A DNA stretch of 64,000 nt from Chloroflexota bacterium (GCA_021323855.1 JAJPKE010000017.1:62001-126000); one strand, 5' to 3'. Shown: positions 53,984 to 59,929, counted from the first letter of the stretch. The notes: generated by a model from the letters alone, not told the origin. Numbers and translations: made by a program.

Positions 53984-55135
53984 ATGTTGCGACAGAAATC
54001 TCCGCAGGTCGTCATCAGCGTCATTGTGACGCTGGTGGTGATCGTGGTTATCATTAGCGGGTTGGCGCATGCCGTCATCCAACTCAACGCCAGGGTCGCG
54101 GCGCTCAATCCGTCAAATGGCACGCAGCAAGTGGCTGCGCCGCCGACGAGCGCGCCCGCCAACGGGCAGTTGCTTGCAGTGGAGGGGCGGCAGATCGTTG
54201 ATGCCCACCATCACCCCGTCACGCTGATAGGCGCGGCCCGCTTCTCGCTGGAATATACCTGTCACGGTGACGGACACTTTCAGCTTGCGGACTTCCAGGC
54301 GATGAGGTCATGGGGTATGAATGCCGTGCGTATTCCGCTCTCCTCGGCGTTCTGGCGCAACCTGGATAACCGCTGCCCGGATTATGAGGCGACGGTTCTC
54401 TCCGCCGTCGGCAATGCGGAGGCGGCGGGCCTCTACGTCATCCTGACGCTTCAGTGGAACGCGCCGTTTGGCCTGCCACAAGATAGCATCCACGGCGGCG
54501 CGCAGTGTCCCTTGCCGGATGCCACCAATGATGTGAAGTTCTGGCAGGACCTCGCGGAGATTTATCAGGATGACCAGCGGGTCCTCTTCGACATCTACAG
54601 CGAACCGAACAACATTGACTGGTCTACCTGGGCCAACGGCGGCACGATCAGCAGCAATTGCTCGCTCTATTCCAGCGTGCAGACGTACACGGCGATTGGG
54701 ATGCCTGCGCTGGCCATGAAGATACGCGCCATCGCACCCAGTAACATCATCATCGTCAGTGGCATTGGCTACGGCTATGATCTGAGCGGCATCAACGCTA
54801 GCAACATGGTGCCTTCGACAAATATCCTCTACGGCACGCATCCTTTCAATCACACGGTGGTACAACAGCCGTCAGACTGGCCGCGCGCCTTCGGCATACC
54901 GGCGCAAACCATCCCCGTCATCGCCACCGAGTTTGGCTCCTATGACTGCGCCACCAGCTATATCGCGCCGGAAATCTCCTATTTCGAGCAACTGCATATC
55001 TCCTTCCTTGCCTGGGCCTGGACGACTGGCGCCTGCACGGTCCCCAGCCTGCTCGCCAACTGGTCTGGCACGCCAAGCACGCCCTACGGCGCGTACATCC
55101 AGCAGCAGATGCGCGCGCAGGCTGGATTAGGATAG
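53984..55135 (+). CDS. Secreted glycoside hydrolase family 5-like protein
   Basis: The 383-residue protein has an N-terminal membrane/signal helix (VVISVIVTLVVIVVIISGLAHAVI) and a linker, then a GH5 (beta/alpha)8 barrel: GMNAVRIPLSSAFW, FDIYSEPNN with acid/base Glu207, and VIATEFGSYDC with nucleophile Glu316. It retains both catalytic Glu residues. It probably trims or releases beta-glycan at the surface. A repeat separates it from the GT-C gene, but order and strand point to one cluster with the GT2 and GT-C genes. Confidence 0.85.
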   Translation: MLRQKSPQVVISVIVTLVVIVVIISGLAHAVIQLNARVAALNPSNGTQQVAAPPTSAPANGQLLAVEGRQIVDAHHHPVTLIGAARFSLEYTCHGDGHFQLADFQAMRSWGMNAVRIPLSSAFWRNLDNRCPDYEATVLSAVGNAEAAGLYVILTLQWNAPFGLPQDSIHGGAQCPLPDATNDVKFWQDLAEIYQDDQRVLFDIYSEPNNIDWSTWANGGTISSNCSLYSSVQTYTAIGMPALAMKIRAIAPSNIIIVSGIGYGYDLSGINASNMVPSTNILYGTHPFNHTVVQQPSDWPRAFGIPAQTIPVIATEFGSYDCATSYIAPEISYFEQLHISFLAWAWTTGACTVPSLLANWSGTPSTPYGAYIQQQMRAQAGLG

Positions 55136-56424: not shown

Positions 56425-57942
56425 TTAGAAGCTGGGGTAGATGCCGCGAATGACGCCGAGGCCGCCCAGGTAGTACACCTTGAGCGTTTCCTCCACGAAA
56501 TCGGCAAATTTGAAATTGGCGTCGGTGATGGCGAAGTCCACGCCCCAGTATTCCTGGTTGGTCTCGATAGTGACGGCGTTGCTGATCTCCGGCACCGGGA
56601 AGGGGATCGAGAGCGGCAGGAAGACCATATGCCCCTGCGGACAGTAGCGGTCCAGGATGATCGGCATTTCCTTGCCGGTGGACTTGTTGAGATAGCGCGT
56701 CACCCGGTACTGCGCCGTGAGTTGCCCCTGGTCCGCGCTGTCGCCAGCCTGTACGACATAGCGCAACTGTCCCGCGCCGACCACCAGATTGGTTAACCTG
56801 ACATTATCCAGCGGATTCATTACGATGTAATCCGGATCGCCCGCCGCCTGCAAATACATGCCCGCCAGCAGATTGTCAATATCCGAGAGCGCCAGTTGTC
56901 CGTTGGCTGCCGCTGGCTGCGTCACCTGCGCACCAAGCGTCGCGCCGTTGGCGGTGCTGGCGTTGTTGATCGCCTGCGCAATCAGCCCATCCCACATCAG
57001 GATGTTGCCACTGCCGTCCACATACGTCTTGGCCGTGTTCGCCGTGACGGTGGAGAGCGCGGTGCCACTGGTGGCGGGTGGCGCGCTGAGCGTCAGCGTC
57101 AGATACGCCGGCGTCACCTCGCCGGAAGGCATCACCGTTACGCCATCGGCCAGTGTCACGGGAGAGCCGATACCCGGCTGCGGCGCATTCGTGCCGGAGA
57201 TGCCTGTCTGGAGCCAGGCGGAGCCGTCGCCCGGATAGCTTGCGCCGGAGGCGATATAGACGTTGTACTGCGTGGCGTTGGGTACTGTGAAAACCGTGAT
57301 CGTGATGGTGGACGTGCTACCAGTGGTCGTGATTTTCGCAGCGGCTGAGCCGGTCGTCTGTCCCTGCGCGTTCAGCGCCGTCACTTTCACCCAATACGTG
57401 CCCGCCGCAACCGTGCCGCCGGTGGTCGCCGTTGCCAGCGCCGGAGCCGGTGGGACCATCAGATAGGCGCTGGCGCCCAGCACCCAGCGTTCCTCGGTGA
57501 TCTTGAGCTGATAGAGCAGTTCGGCCACGCGCCGCGCCCGCACATCGGCTTCCAGCGAGCGCCCACGCCACTGCGCCTGAAAGCTCACCTGGTTCATCAG
57601 CGAGATGGTTTGCAGCGTATTCTGCATCTGCGCCACGGCATACGTCACCTGTGAAGGGGTGCCACCATCCGCCAGCGTGCCCCAATTGCGGGCCGTGTCG
57701 AATGACGTTATGGCTTTCCAGTGAACGATATCCACTCCAGCGCCGCGCCGCCGGGGCAGCAGATTCACCAGCGGCGTAATCACCGGCACAATCACCCGCG
57801 CCGGCACTTCCAACTCGTAGCCGTTCAGGCCGGTGCTGGTATTGATGGCGCGTGTCGTCTCCGCCATTGCCTCGCGCACCAGCGCCACCGTCTCATCGCT
57901 GATCGTCGGGCCAACCGGACCCGGCGTGTACAATCCTGTCAT
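56425..57942 (-). CDS. HK97-fold major capsid protein
   Basis: The 505-residue protein has an N-terminal segment with PARVIVPVITPLVNLLPRRRGAGV and an E-loop/spine region (SLMNQVSFQAQWRGRSLEADVRARRVAELLYQLK). A central Ig/FN3-like insertion (about residues 163-310: TYWVKVTALNAQGQTTGSAAA, TITITVFTVPNATQYNVYIA, a long beta-strand block) follows, then the C-terminal capsid part (DPDYIVMNPLDNVRLTNLVVG). It matches phage HK97-like major capsid proteins, which self-assemble into icosahedral shells. The ATG at 57942 follows AGGAGAG. It sits downstream of its own maturation protease, in the order used by caudoviruses. No portal, terminase or tail gene is nearby. Confidence 0.85.
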   Translation of the reverse strand: MTGLYTPGPVGPTISDETVALVREAMAETTRAINTSTGLNGYELEVPARVIVPVITPLVNLLPRRRGAGVDIVHWKAITSFDTARNWGTLADGGTPSQVTYAVAQMQNTLQTISLMNQVSFQAQWRGRSLEADVRARRVAELLYQLKITEERWVLGASAYLMVPPAPALATATTGGTVAAGTYWVKVTALNAQGQTTGSAAAKITTTGSTSTITITVFTVPNATQYNVYIASGASYPGDGSAWLQTGISGTNAPQPGIGSPVTLADGVTVMPSGEVTPAYLTLTLSAPPATSGTALSTVTANTAKTYVDGSGNILMWDGLIAQAINNASTANGATLGAQVTQPAAANGQLALSDIDNLLAGMYLQAAGDPDYIVMNPLDNVRLTNLVVGAGQLRYVVQAGDSADQGQLTAQYRVTRYLNKSTGKEMPIILDRYCPQGHMVFLPLSIPFPVPEISNAVTIETNQEYWGVDFAITDANFKFADFVEETLKVYYLGGLGVIRGIYPSF

Positions 57943-57964
57943 CGTCGTTGCTCTCCTGGTTTTT

Positions 57965-58101
57965 GACCTCACCCCCTACCCCCTCTCCCGCGAGGAGAGG
58001 GGCCGTGAGGCGAGGTATGTTGCTGCTAGTTCGCAATTTCGCCAGCCGATAATCTGGCTCCCCTCTCCCGCGCACGGGGGAGGGGCTGGGGGTGGGGGCT
58101 A
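57965..58101. repeat. Two module A repeats between protease and capsid genes
   Basis: A direct copy at 57965-58012 (with CTCTCCCGCGAGGAGAGGGG) and an inverted copy at 58057-58101 fill the gap between the two capsid-locus genes. Their presence inside a phage-type operon points to long residence in the host chromosome. Confidence 0.85.
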
Positions 58102-59670
58102 CCCTTCGCGTTGCAGGCGAATCAGTTCGGCGGCGACGGCAATCTGCGCCTGTGGGTCGCGCAGCCGCCCTGCCAGCGATTCCAGCGCGCGCAAGGGGTC
58201 GCTCGCCATGCCGCCAGTAGTGCTAGCGCCTTGCGGAGCCAGCGCCAGCGCCTTCTCTGCCACGCGCGCCGCCGGGCCGCCGGGGATGGGTTGCGCCTCT
58301 AACGCATCGAGGCGAATTTTGATGTCGCCAACTGTGCCTGACATCTGATTCACCGCTGCGCCCACCAGCGTGCGCAGCCCCTGCACGCCCTCATCCATGC
58401 GTTCGAGTTGCGTCGCGCTCGCCTGGAGTCCCGCCGCCACCGCGCGCACCAGCGCCAGTTCCACGCGCTGCTCATGTTCACTGCGGTTTTCCAGATGTTC
58501 GCGTTGCGTATTAGTTGTCGCGCGTCGGTTTGCCGGCAGACCAGCGGGCGCTTCTTCCAGCGTATCGCCGGTTTCGCCCAGCGCCGCAATAGCGCCGATA
58601 CAGAGCGGGCAGCCGCAGCCCATCAGGATGCCGCGCGCTGCCGCATGAAAACGCGCTCGTAGATTGCCGTCTGGCGACACGCCCAGGTCAGCGGTTGGGC
58701 GCGCCTCGGCCTGCGCAGGCACGCCAGTATCGGGATAGCCCTCGGCATTAGTGCTGAAGGCGCCCAGCGCCCGCAACGTTTCGGCGCGTGGCGTCGAGTG
58801 TTCCTGATGTTCGGCATGTTCTGCGTGTTTCGGATGAAACACAGTCGAAGCTACAATCGGGTCGAGGGCAGGCATGTGTCTCTGCTGATGCCGTCCCAGA
58901 CATTCGCAGGAGGACGGCGGGGGCGTCTCATCATCCGGCCAGAGCGAACGCATCGAAGGACTGGCCGCAGGGCCGGCATCCTTGCCAGCCGCCCATACAT
59001 CAGTGGTATCTATCGTGTCTCCGTATTTTGGGTCGCTCGTGCTTGCCGGTTTCGCCGCTTCGGTTGTCTCTGATTCCAATTCATCGAGTAGCGCGGGGTC
59101 CGGGGCGGCGTCGCGCACAATCGTGACGCCCAGCGCATCGGGGTTACTGGGATTATCCACCAGACTGAGTTCCACGAGATCATAGTGGGTGGCGACGGTG
59201 ATACGCCGTTCGCGTCCAGCAACGCGCCGCGTCTGCCGCTCCCAGGTGACATTGCTGGCGCCGATGCTGGCGCCGCGCAGCGTGCCGTCGAGGATTTTCT
59301 CCCAGGTATCCTCAGCGCCGCGCGAGATATGCACACGCACGAAGACCTTGCGCGCGGTGTCGTCGAAACGAACCGCCGCCCGGCTCCCCACAGCGCGCCG
59401 TTCGTGCATCTCGCGCACATTGCCAATCCAGCGCGTAAACGCATCTTTGCTGGCCGCATAGTCGAAGACCGTGCCGTGGCTATCCACCGCCTCGCTCGTC
59501 GCGCAGAGTTCTACCTCGCGGCGCGCCTCGTCCACCCGCACAATGGGCGCAAAGCCCACGCGCGTGACCTGGTTCGCCGCTGCCATGCCTTCCGCCAACT
59601 GCTCCATCTGTTCCGCCGCTTTCCGCGCAACGGGGGCTGCCCGTCGCACTGTCGCCTGTCCCGCTCGCAT
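58099..59670 (-). CDS. HK97-type prohead protease with long C-terminal extension
   Basis: The 523-residue protein starts with an HK97-type (peptidase U35) protease: EAVDSHGTVFDYAASKDAF, then catalytic His89 (VREMHERRAV) and Ser135 (GTLRGASIGAS), followed by LVELSLVDNPSNPDAL. Residues about 230-523 are an extension of Pro/Glu-rich low complexity, a Cys cluster G-C-G-C-P-L-C (about 345-352) and a coiled-coil-like C-terminus (ERMDEGVQGLRTLVGAAV, LAALEAQ-type heptads), perhaps an internal scaffold fused to the protease. The ATG at 59670 follows AGAGGTGAGG. It heads the capsid operon behind promoter 59901-59929 and hairpin 59724-59777. Confidence 0.88.
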   Translation of the reverse strand: MRAGQATVRRAAPVARKAAEQMEQLAEGMAAANQVTRVGFAPIVRVDEARREVELCATSEAVDSHGTVFDYAASKDAFTRWIGNVREMHERRAVGSRAAVRFDDTARKVFVRVHISRGAEDTWEKILDGTLRGASIGASNVTWERQTRRVAGRERRITVATHYDLVELSLVDNPSNPDALGVTIVRDAAPDPALLDELESETTEAAKPASTSDPKYGDTIDTTDVWAAGKDAGPAASPSMRSLWPDDETPPPSSCECLGRHQQRHMPALDPIVASTVFHPKHAEHAEHQEHSTPRAETLRALGAFSTNAEGYPDTGVPAQAEARPTADLGVSPDGNLRARFHAAARGILMGCGCPLCIGAIAALGETGDTLEEAPAGLPANRRATTNTQREHLENRSEHEQRVELALVRAVAAGLQASATQLERMDEGVQGLRTLVGAAVNQMSGTVGDIKIRLDALEAQPIPGGPAARVAEKALALAPQGASTTGGMASDPLRALESLAGRLRDPQAQIAVAAELIRLQREG

Positions 59671-59723
59671 CGGCGCCTCACCTCTTTCTTTTGCTTTCCA
59701 GACGCTGCACTTCGCCAACACAG

Positions 59724-59777
59724 AAAAAGGCGCCGCTCTCCTGCCCCGTAGACTTTCCTACGGGAGAGAGCGGCGCC
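59724..59777 (-). terminator. Rho-independent terminator in the leader of the capsid operon
   Basis: On the minus strand, GGCGCCGCTCTC (59766-59777 read inward) pairs with GAGAGCGGCGCC (59729-59740 complement). An inner CCGTAG/CTACGG stem lies inside, and TTTTTC follows the stem. It lies 54 nt upstream of the protease ATG and downstream of promoter 59901-59929. A terminator between promoter and gene suggests transcription attenuation; alternatively it ends the small upstream gene. Confidence 0.7.
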
Positions 59778-59900
59778 CTACTCGGACTCACCGCCATGTA
59801 TTCAGGCCAGGCTGCCGGACCTAGCAGCTACACAACAGCCAGTCCGCCTCAGCACACGCTACAGATGACGCACTCCGCAATCAACTTCACGCTGCTGAAA

Positions 59901-59929
59901 AGTATAGAACATTATTTCTAATTATGCAA
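59901..59929 (-). promoter_or_regulatory. Promoter of the capsid operon
   Basis: The minus strand has TTGCAT (59924-59929), a 17-bp spacer and TATACT (59901-59906). The predicted start near 59894 gives a 225-nt leader including the terminator hairpin before the protease start. Confidence 0.6.

Follow-up and report, generated by a model that had tools for sequence, protein, structure and literature searches.

A capsid and protease gene pair as a candidate unit of a dispersed, GTA-like phage particle in Ktedonobacterales

The adjacent genes for a major capsid protein (MCP) and a prohead protease in a soil bacterium of the Ktedonobacterales (Chloroflexota) belong to a set of tailed-phage genes that is scattered over the genome, is conserved in the host family under purifying selection and, in several genomes, has promoter boxes and a leader in common. 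On balance, the pair is probably the capsid and protease unit of a domesticated, dispersed tailed-phage particle of GTA-like type, which would have DNA damage as its inducer and antitermination as a gate. The window, which is the whole stretch of 64,000 nucleotides that was analysed, corresponds to C7:62001-126000 of the 384-kb contig C7 in a 5.59-Mb MAG (G000).

The capsid and protease genes of the window

The pair and the features beside it are as follows.

53984..55135, plus strand: neighbouring GH5 cellulase-like gene
56425..57942, minus strand: major capsid (head) protein, MCP; 505 aa from ATG 57942, in an ORF that opens at GTG 57972
57943..58098: intergenic stretch with two host-type palindromic CTCTCCC/GGGAGAG repeats
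58099..59670, minus strand: prohead (head maturation) serine protease, S78-type; 523 aa from ATG 59670

Both ORFs are intact and adjacent, as the initial annotation had described them, and the two host-type repeats that it placed between the genes are indeed present as palindromes. ATG 57942 for the MCP and ATG 59670 for the protease are the likely starts, being favoured by the Shine-Dalgarno position. The protease matches PHROG 9427 ‘head maturation protease’ with an E-value of 9e-31, and Pfam Peptidase_S78 with 17.1 bits, which is under the 21-bit cut-off. The complete His/Ser pair noted at the outset is borne out, in that the catalytic His106 and Ser152 (counted from the GTG at 59721) lie in conserved motifs and are invariant across the aligned relatives.

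The MCP has an unnamed family as its sole PHROG match and contains an Ig-like insertion, roughly from residue 165 to 255. Its AlphaFold model is of low confidence (pLDDT 48), and the best PDB match of this model is the SPO1 capsid, over only about 100 residues (E 0.004). The model is too poor to confirm an HK97 fold, and the identity of the MCP is based on gene order and on homology (tblastn E 7e-10) to the Alicyclobacillus phage MMB025 protein with the annotation ‘major head protein’, whose gene directly follows that of the head maturation protease.

In agreement with the first description of the window, no portal, terminase or tail homologue was found in it by blastp against the phage gene set, and the 25 listed of 43 matching PHROG families for the 50 window gene products include no structural phage gene besides the protease. 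The gene calls of C7:2-186 kb gave no phage gene beyond the pair in the same blastp comparison, and the closest one is 90 kb off. The GH5 gene has homologues in L062, L267 and L076. Homologues stand directly upstream of the adaptor gene in the family f3 genomes G017 and G023, and near the adaptor in G015; the position near the MCP here and on the adaptor side in f3 is perhaps a trace of an ancestral order.

Phage units scattered over the genome and their conservation

The search of G000 started from a compact copy of the phage genes in the complete genome G004 (CP126532.1), a related Ktedonobacterales MAG. The following units were found in G000.

C7:211.7-214.2 kb: TerS-TerL, 90 kb from the window pair
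C7:342.7-343.6 kb: head-tail adaptor (Conn), with 103-aa and 186-aa connector homologues beside it, 220 kb from the window pair
C5:124.3 kb: portal
C5:106.1 kb: tail hub (Tal)
C41:40343-42703, plus strand, and C33:5168-6412, minus strand: the two halves of a Dit-like gene
C16:76264-85137, minus strand: leader, Prim-Pol/AAA gene (primase), a restriction-modification-like gene of type ISP, and a second TerL preceded by a leader of its own

Each unit is surrounded by unrelated genes, the contigs involved being C5, C7, C16, C33 and C41. The description of the pair as a ‘stand-alone’ cassette thus has to be given up, since other morphogenesis genes lie elsewhere in the same genome. The search of a wider context, which the initial annotation had proposed, did find terminase and portal genes, but at least 90 kb away and on several contigs, with no single cluster near the window. 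The portal, TerL, protease and adaptor are assigned by PHROG and Pfam, and Tal by its fold, its structure model matching phage baseplate hubs (Foldseek E 1.4e-13, MuSo2 43-kDa tail protein). The Walker and nuclease residues of TerL are invariant. The C16 ORFs hold in-frame peptides encoded by palindromic repeats (PLPRTGEGLGVG).

The Dit-like gene of G000 is broken between residues 748 and 749, and a 141-bp repeat, 98% identical and in inverted orientation, ends both halves at the break points; the break may be real damage or misassembly at the repeat. In siphophage-like relatives the tape measure gene adjoins the Dit/Tal homologues. Searches with PF10145, with the G005 prophage protein and by tblastn of prophage tail genes found no tape measure in G000 or in complete G004, and no tail-tube gene was found in these two genomes. 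Two weak PF10145 matches in G007 and G008 were rejected as tape measures, being chemotaxis receptors. Because neither a tape measure nor a tail tube was found and the Dit-like gene is split, G000 may already have lost a working tail.

The host family was sampled with 11 genomes (G000-G010), the drafts being 58-91% complete. The window-type MCP is present in eight of them, with 79-87% identity to the window copy in other genera; the portal is present in nine, and so is TerL, which in one of its nine genomes (G005) is of the prophage type. The set is dispersed in most family genomes (8-9/11) in varying surroundings, and the portal flanks differ in every genome compared. In the regions compared, G000 and G004 have very little background synteny, and lost position alone is therefore no evidence of mobility. 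In complete G004 (CP126532.1) the dispersed set spans 0.95 Mb and lies on a single strand throughout, with the portal at 2.581 Mb, protease-MCP at 2.861, adaptor at 2.871, the 186-aa gene at 2.874, Dit at 2.877, Tal at 2.966 and TerL at 3.527 Mb.

Pairwise dN/dS values are 0.08-0.46 for MCP, protease, portal, TerL, adaptor and Tal, with some dS near saturation, and these six dispersed genes are under purifying selection. Together with the family-wide conservation, these values support the selection and long residence that had been claimed for the locus. RpoB of G000 diverges by 11-17% from that of other genera in the family; between G000 and G004, identity is 85% for MCP and 87% for RpoB. Frequent frameshifts in relatives, which would have indicated decay, were not found in MCP, protease, portal, TerL, adaptor or Tal, the exception being the split Dit-like gene of G000. 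Across two families the gene distances correlate with those of rpoB (r 0.80-0.89), whereas within the family r is about 0 or below for MCP, portal, TerL and protease; trimmed sequences were used in this comparison, and the G010 rpoB and some automatic gene calls were left out. The gene trees broadly separate the families. On these distances and trees, co-inheritance with the host is supported between families only.

In addition to its dispersed set, G004 has a second, compact copy at 3353-3385 kb with protease, MCP, adaptor, 103-aa connector, portal, TerS and TerL, and with Tal and Dit nearby. The IMG/VR contig L021 has a similar compact set, and the two form a sister branch in the portal, TerL and adaptor trees. 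Among the family genomes examined, a close compact copy occurs in G004 only. Prophage relatives exist in the order, in G005 (C643) and in G038. The related prophage at 5045-5125 kb of G038 consists of two tandem 40-kb copies that have the same gene layout and score identically in the searches, which is perhaps a duplication or an assembly effect.

Promoter and leader in front of the units

Upstream of the protease gene, the window contains three regulatory features.

59901..59929, minus strand: sigma-70-like promoter with -35 TTGCAT (59924-59929), a 17-nt spacer and -10 TATACT (59901-59906)
59907..59918, minus strand: SOS/LexA-type box GAAATAATGTTC, adjoining the -10 on its upstream side and differing from GAAC-N4-GTTC at one position
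59721..59792, minus strand: conserved leader between the promoter and the protease gene, made up of unpaired GGTGAGTCCGAGTAG and, after it, a strong terminator hairpin with a U-run

The box sits inside the 17-nt spacer of the promoter. A promoter matrix was made from nine training sites in G003, G006, G008, G009 and G010 and scanned over 1.35 Mb of G000 and G004. Even though the matrix was trained on other genomes, the window promoter is the third-best site in this sequence, and 12 of the 25 top sites lie upstream of dispersed phage units of G000 and G004. A score of at least 20 is reached by 30 sites, compared with 0-3 in simulated sequence. The matrix also matches recA in both genomes, and the exact GAACN4GTTC is found before ruvB as well. 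The dispersed phage units are a predicted SOS/LexA regulon, with a box in common with recA and ruvB. The recA gene of G000 (C7:207841-209100, plus strand), with its SOS-type promoter, is about 3 kb from the TerS-TerL unit.

The leader surfaced when the upstream regions of protease genes were compared, as the element GGTGAGTCYGARTAGGRCGCCG and a terminator hairpin behind the boxed promoter. The same leader precedes TerS, the Dit-like gene and the C16 unit in G000, the protease, adaptor and Tal in G004, the protease and adaptor in G003, and the protease or TerS in G009 and G006. A covariance model (R1) was built from 12 leader copies; the window leader, itself a training member, scores 71.2 bits against it and has a folding z of -5.1. 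In R1, 10 of 18 pairs are changed on both sides, which was matched by none of 500 shuffles and by no slid register. Matches outside the training set include Tal (E 6e-7), the adaptor (1e-7) and the second TerL (4.5e-5) in G000, Dit in G004 (8e-10), and the 103-aa connector (1e-6) and TerS (4e-4) in G003. The leader of the G000 adaptor lies 2.1 kb upstream of that gene, with a host ORF in between.

The leader was found only in G000, G003, G004, G006 and G009, and in these five genomes it is common to many phage units together with the SOS/LexA-type promoter. The G007 loci and family f3 have neither leader nor box. Within G000 the portal and Dit-C units are without the leader, the portal unit having the box. 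R1 has no match in the compact G004 copy, the prophages or the related IMG/VR contigs; the exact-pattern consensus of the leader has no match in IMG/VR, and no Rfam family comes near its gathering score at the leader. With a terminator between it and its promoter, a gene would stay silent as long as nothing overrides the terminator, and the leader therefore most likely marks antitermination sites. It would itself be a new cis-regulatory RNA, probably of this kind.

Small ORFs accompany some of the leaders. A conserved Arg/Lys-rich ORF of 119 aa (C5:105754-106113, plus strand) lies between leader and Tal in G000, and a similar coding sequence also precedes Tal in G004, G006 and G007. In several genomes a small ORF of about 75-106 aa (in G000 at C7:214.3-214.7 kb, minus strand) stands ahead of the TerS leader, which is therefore intergenic there. 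In G004, good leader copies with SOS-type promoters at 2683876, 3030045 and 3333237 (plus strand) have no recognisable genes behind them and are followed by short imperfect repeats.

A domesticated particle, its rivals and its known counterparts

If the pair belongs to a damage-induced particle, DNA damage would free the SOS boxes of the dispersed units from LexA repression. Transcription from each would then first run into the terminator-bearing leader, where a putative antitermination factor would be required for read-through. Such a switch would have two steps, with damage opening the promoter and the antitermination factor letting RNA polymerase pass. The capsid would be assembled and then matured by the protease, TerS/TerL would fill the head through the portal, and the adaptor, connectors and tail-hub proteins would complete the particle, with which the host may move DNA. 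Because no single locus holds the phage set, host DNA is the likely cargo; with loci 90 kb to about 1 Mb apart, the system would probably be unable to package its own genome in full. That the set represents an independent Chloroflexota GTA lineage, in which one SOS box and an antitermination-type leader synchronise the dispersed units so that a damaged cell assembles the particle, is put forward more tentatively, as a serious possibility that falls short of being probable.

Among the roles suggested for the pair at first, that of a GTA part fits best. A domesticated shell does not fit, since the same genomes have also conserved a portal, terminase, connectors and tail hub, and an encapsulin or stand-alone shell was rejected on account of the portal, TerS/TerL, adaptor and Tal encoded elsewhere in G000. 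A late prophage remnant, also proposed, fits poorly with a gene set that is conserved family-wide under purifying selection and has one regulatory module at many units. In its dispersed form this idea is the main rival, unlikely as it is: an old Ktedonobacterales phage would have been broken up by a high rearrangement rate and would have kept its ancestral late promoters and leaders, with the particle no longer made. It stays the main rival because the searches of G000 and G004 gave neither a tape measure nor a tail tube and G000 has its Dit-like gene in two halves; the portal flanks that vary between genera, the real prophages of G005 (C643) and G038 and the genera without the leader are also in its favour. 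However, MCP, protease, portal, TerL, adaptor and Tal are intact in most of the 11 family genomes, and dN/dS is low between genera whose RpoB differ by 11-17%. Intact genes over that divergence argue against a neutral remnant, which would carry stops, and the conservation of the MCP between G000 and G004 is close to that of RpoB (85% vs 87%).

The compact set of G004 and the similar one of L021, as a sister branch for portal, TerL and adaptor, could also mean that a compact copy of this kind is an active virus, for which the dispersed genes would be captured spare parts or serve immunity or interference. Such a helper-dependent or split phage is very unlikely: the close compact copy is restricted to G004, whereas dispersed genes occur in nearly all family genomes examined, the leader is absent from the compact copies, and a full head set would have to be captured repeatedly, gene by gene. 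Least likely of the readings weighed is a particle with a purpose other than DNA transfer, such as a tailocin-like killing particle or a protein-filled shell. The conserved tail-hub (baseplate-hub-fold) and Dit-like genes would suit it, but conservation extends to the portal and to TerS/TerL, in which the Walker and nuclease residues are invariant, and a tailocin or an encapsulin could do without these genes.

RcGTA keeps a contiguous main structural cluster, whereas in the GTA-like set described here even the portal, capsid, terminase and tail genes stand apart. GTAs with an established genetic basis form three groups, RcGTA, BaGTA and BhGTA (VSH-1), none of which is in Chloroflexota (PMC9662315). 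Like the present set, they consist of tailed-phage genes for head, packaging and tail that have become endogenous at several loci, five in the case of RcGTA, and they have no one-piece phage genome to package (PMC9662315). The present set differs from them in its phylum, in its SOS-box promoter and common leader, and in that no tape measure or tail tube was found. It is named GTA-like, not GTA, because two of the six features in the definition of PMC9662315 are seen, and these at the level of genes: tailed-phage (caudoviricete) protein ancestry and full endogenisation, often multi-locus (five contigs in G000; 0.95 Mb in G004). The other four features of that definition are vertical inheritance with co-diversification, for which the rpoB distances agree between families and disagree within the family, a cargo of mostly random host DNA, a genome of its own that is not packaged whole, and DNA delivery to recipient cells; the last three are predictions for the present set. 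A literature search on gene transfer agents or prophages in Ktedonobacter/Chloroflexi found nothing on this system; what appears to be new is the phylum in which it occurs, how far its genes are dispersed, its SOS-linked regulon and its leader element. A set so widely scattered escapes prophage finders, which look for clusters; here, the common leader and promoter expose it. If the preferred reading is true, the set shows how a phage becomes a chromosomal regulon and ties possible gene transfer to DNA damage, and the SOS box with the leader hairpin would be a searchable signature for other dispersed phage-derived systems.

Late gene control in lambda works by Q-dependent antitermination at pR′-tR′. 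The order of promoter, short leader, intrinsic terminator and then late genes, which need antitermination, is similar to that seen here; unlike in lambda, no Q homologue was identified, and the leader, for which Rfam gives no reliable match, is repeated in front of many separate units. MMB025 (PV686781) has the protease followed by the homologous major head protein, as here, with adaptor and closure genes further on. It differs in being a phage of 105 kb with a contractile tail and with genes that form one block, and its head protein is only about 28% identical. The LexA boxes CGAAC-N4-GTTCG of Bacillus (PMC4551915) and Streptomyces (PMC9380542) agree with the boxes found here, and the regulons of both resemble the present one in having GAAC-N4-GTTC-type boxes, which here stand as predicted sites before recA and ruvB.
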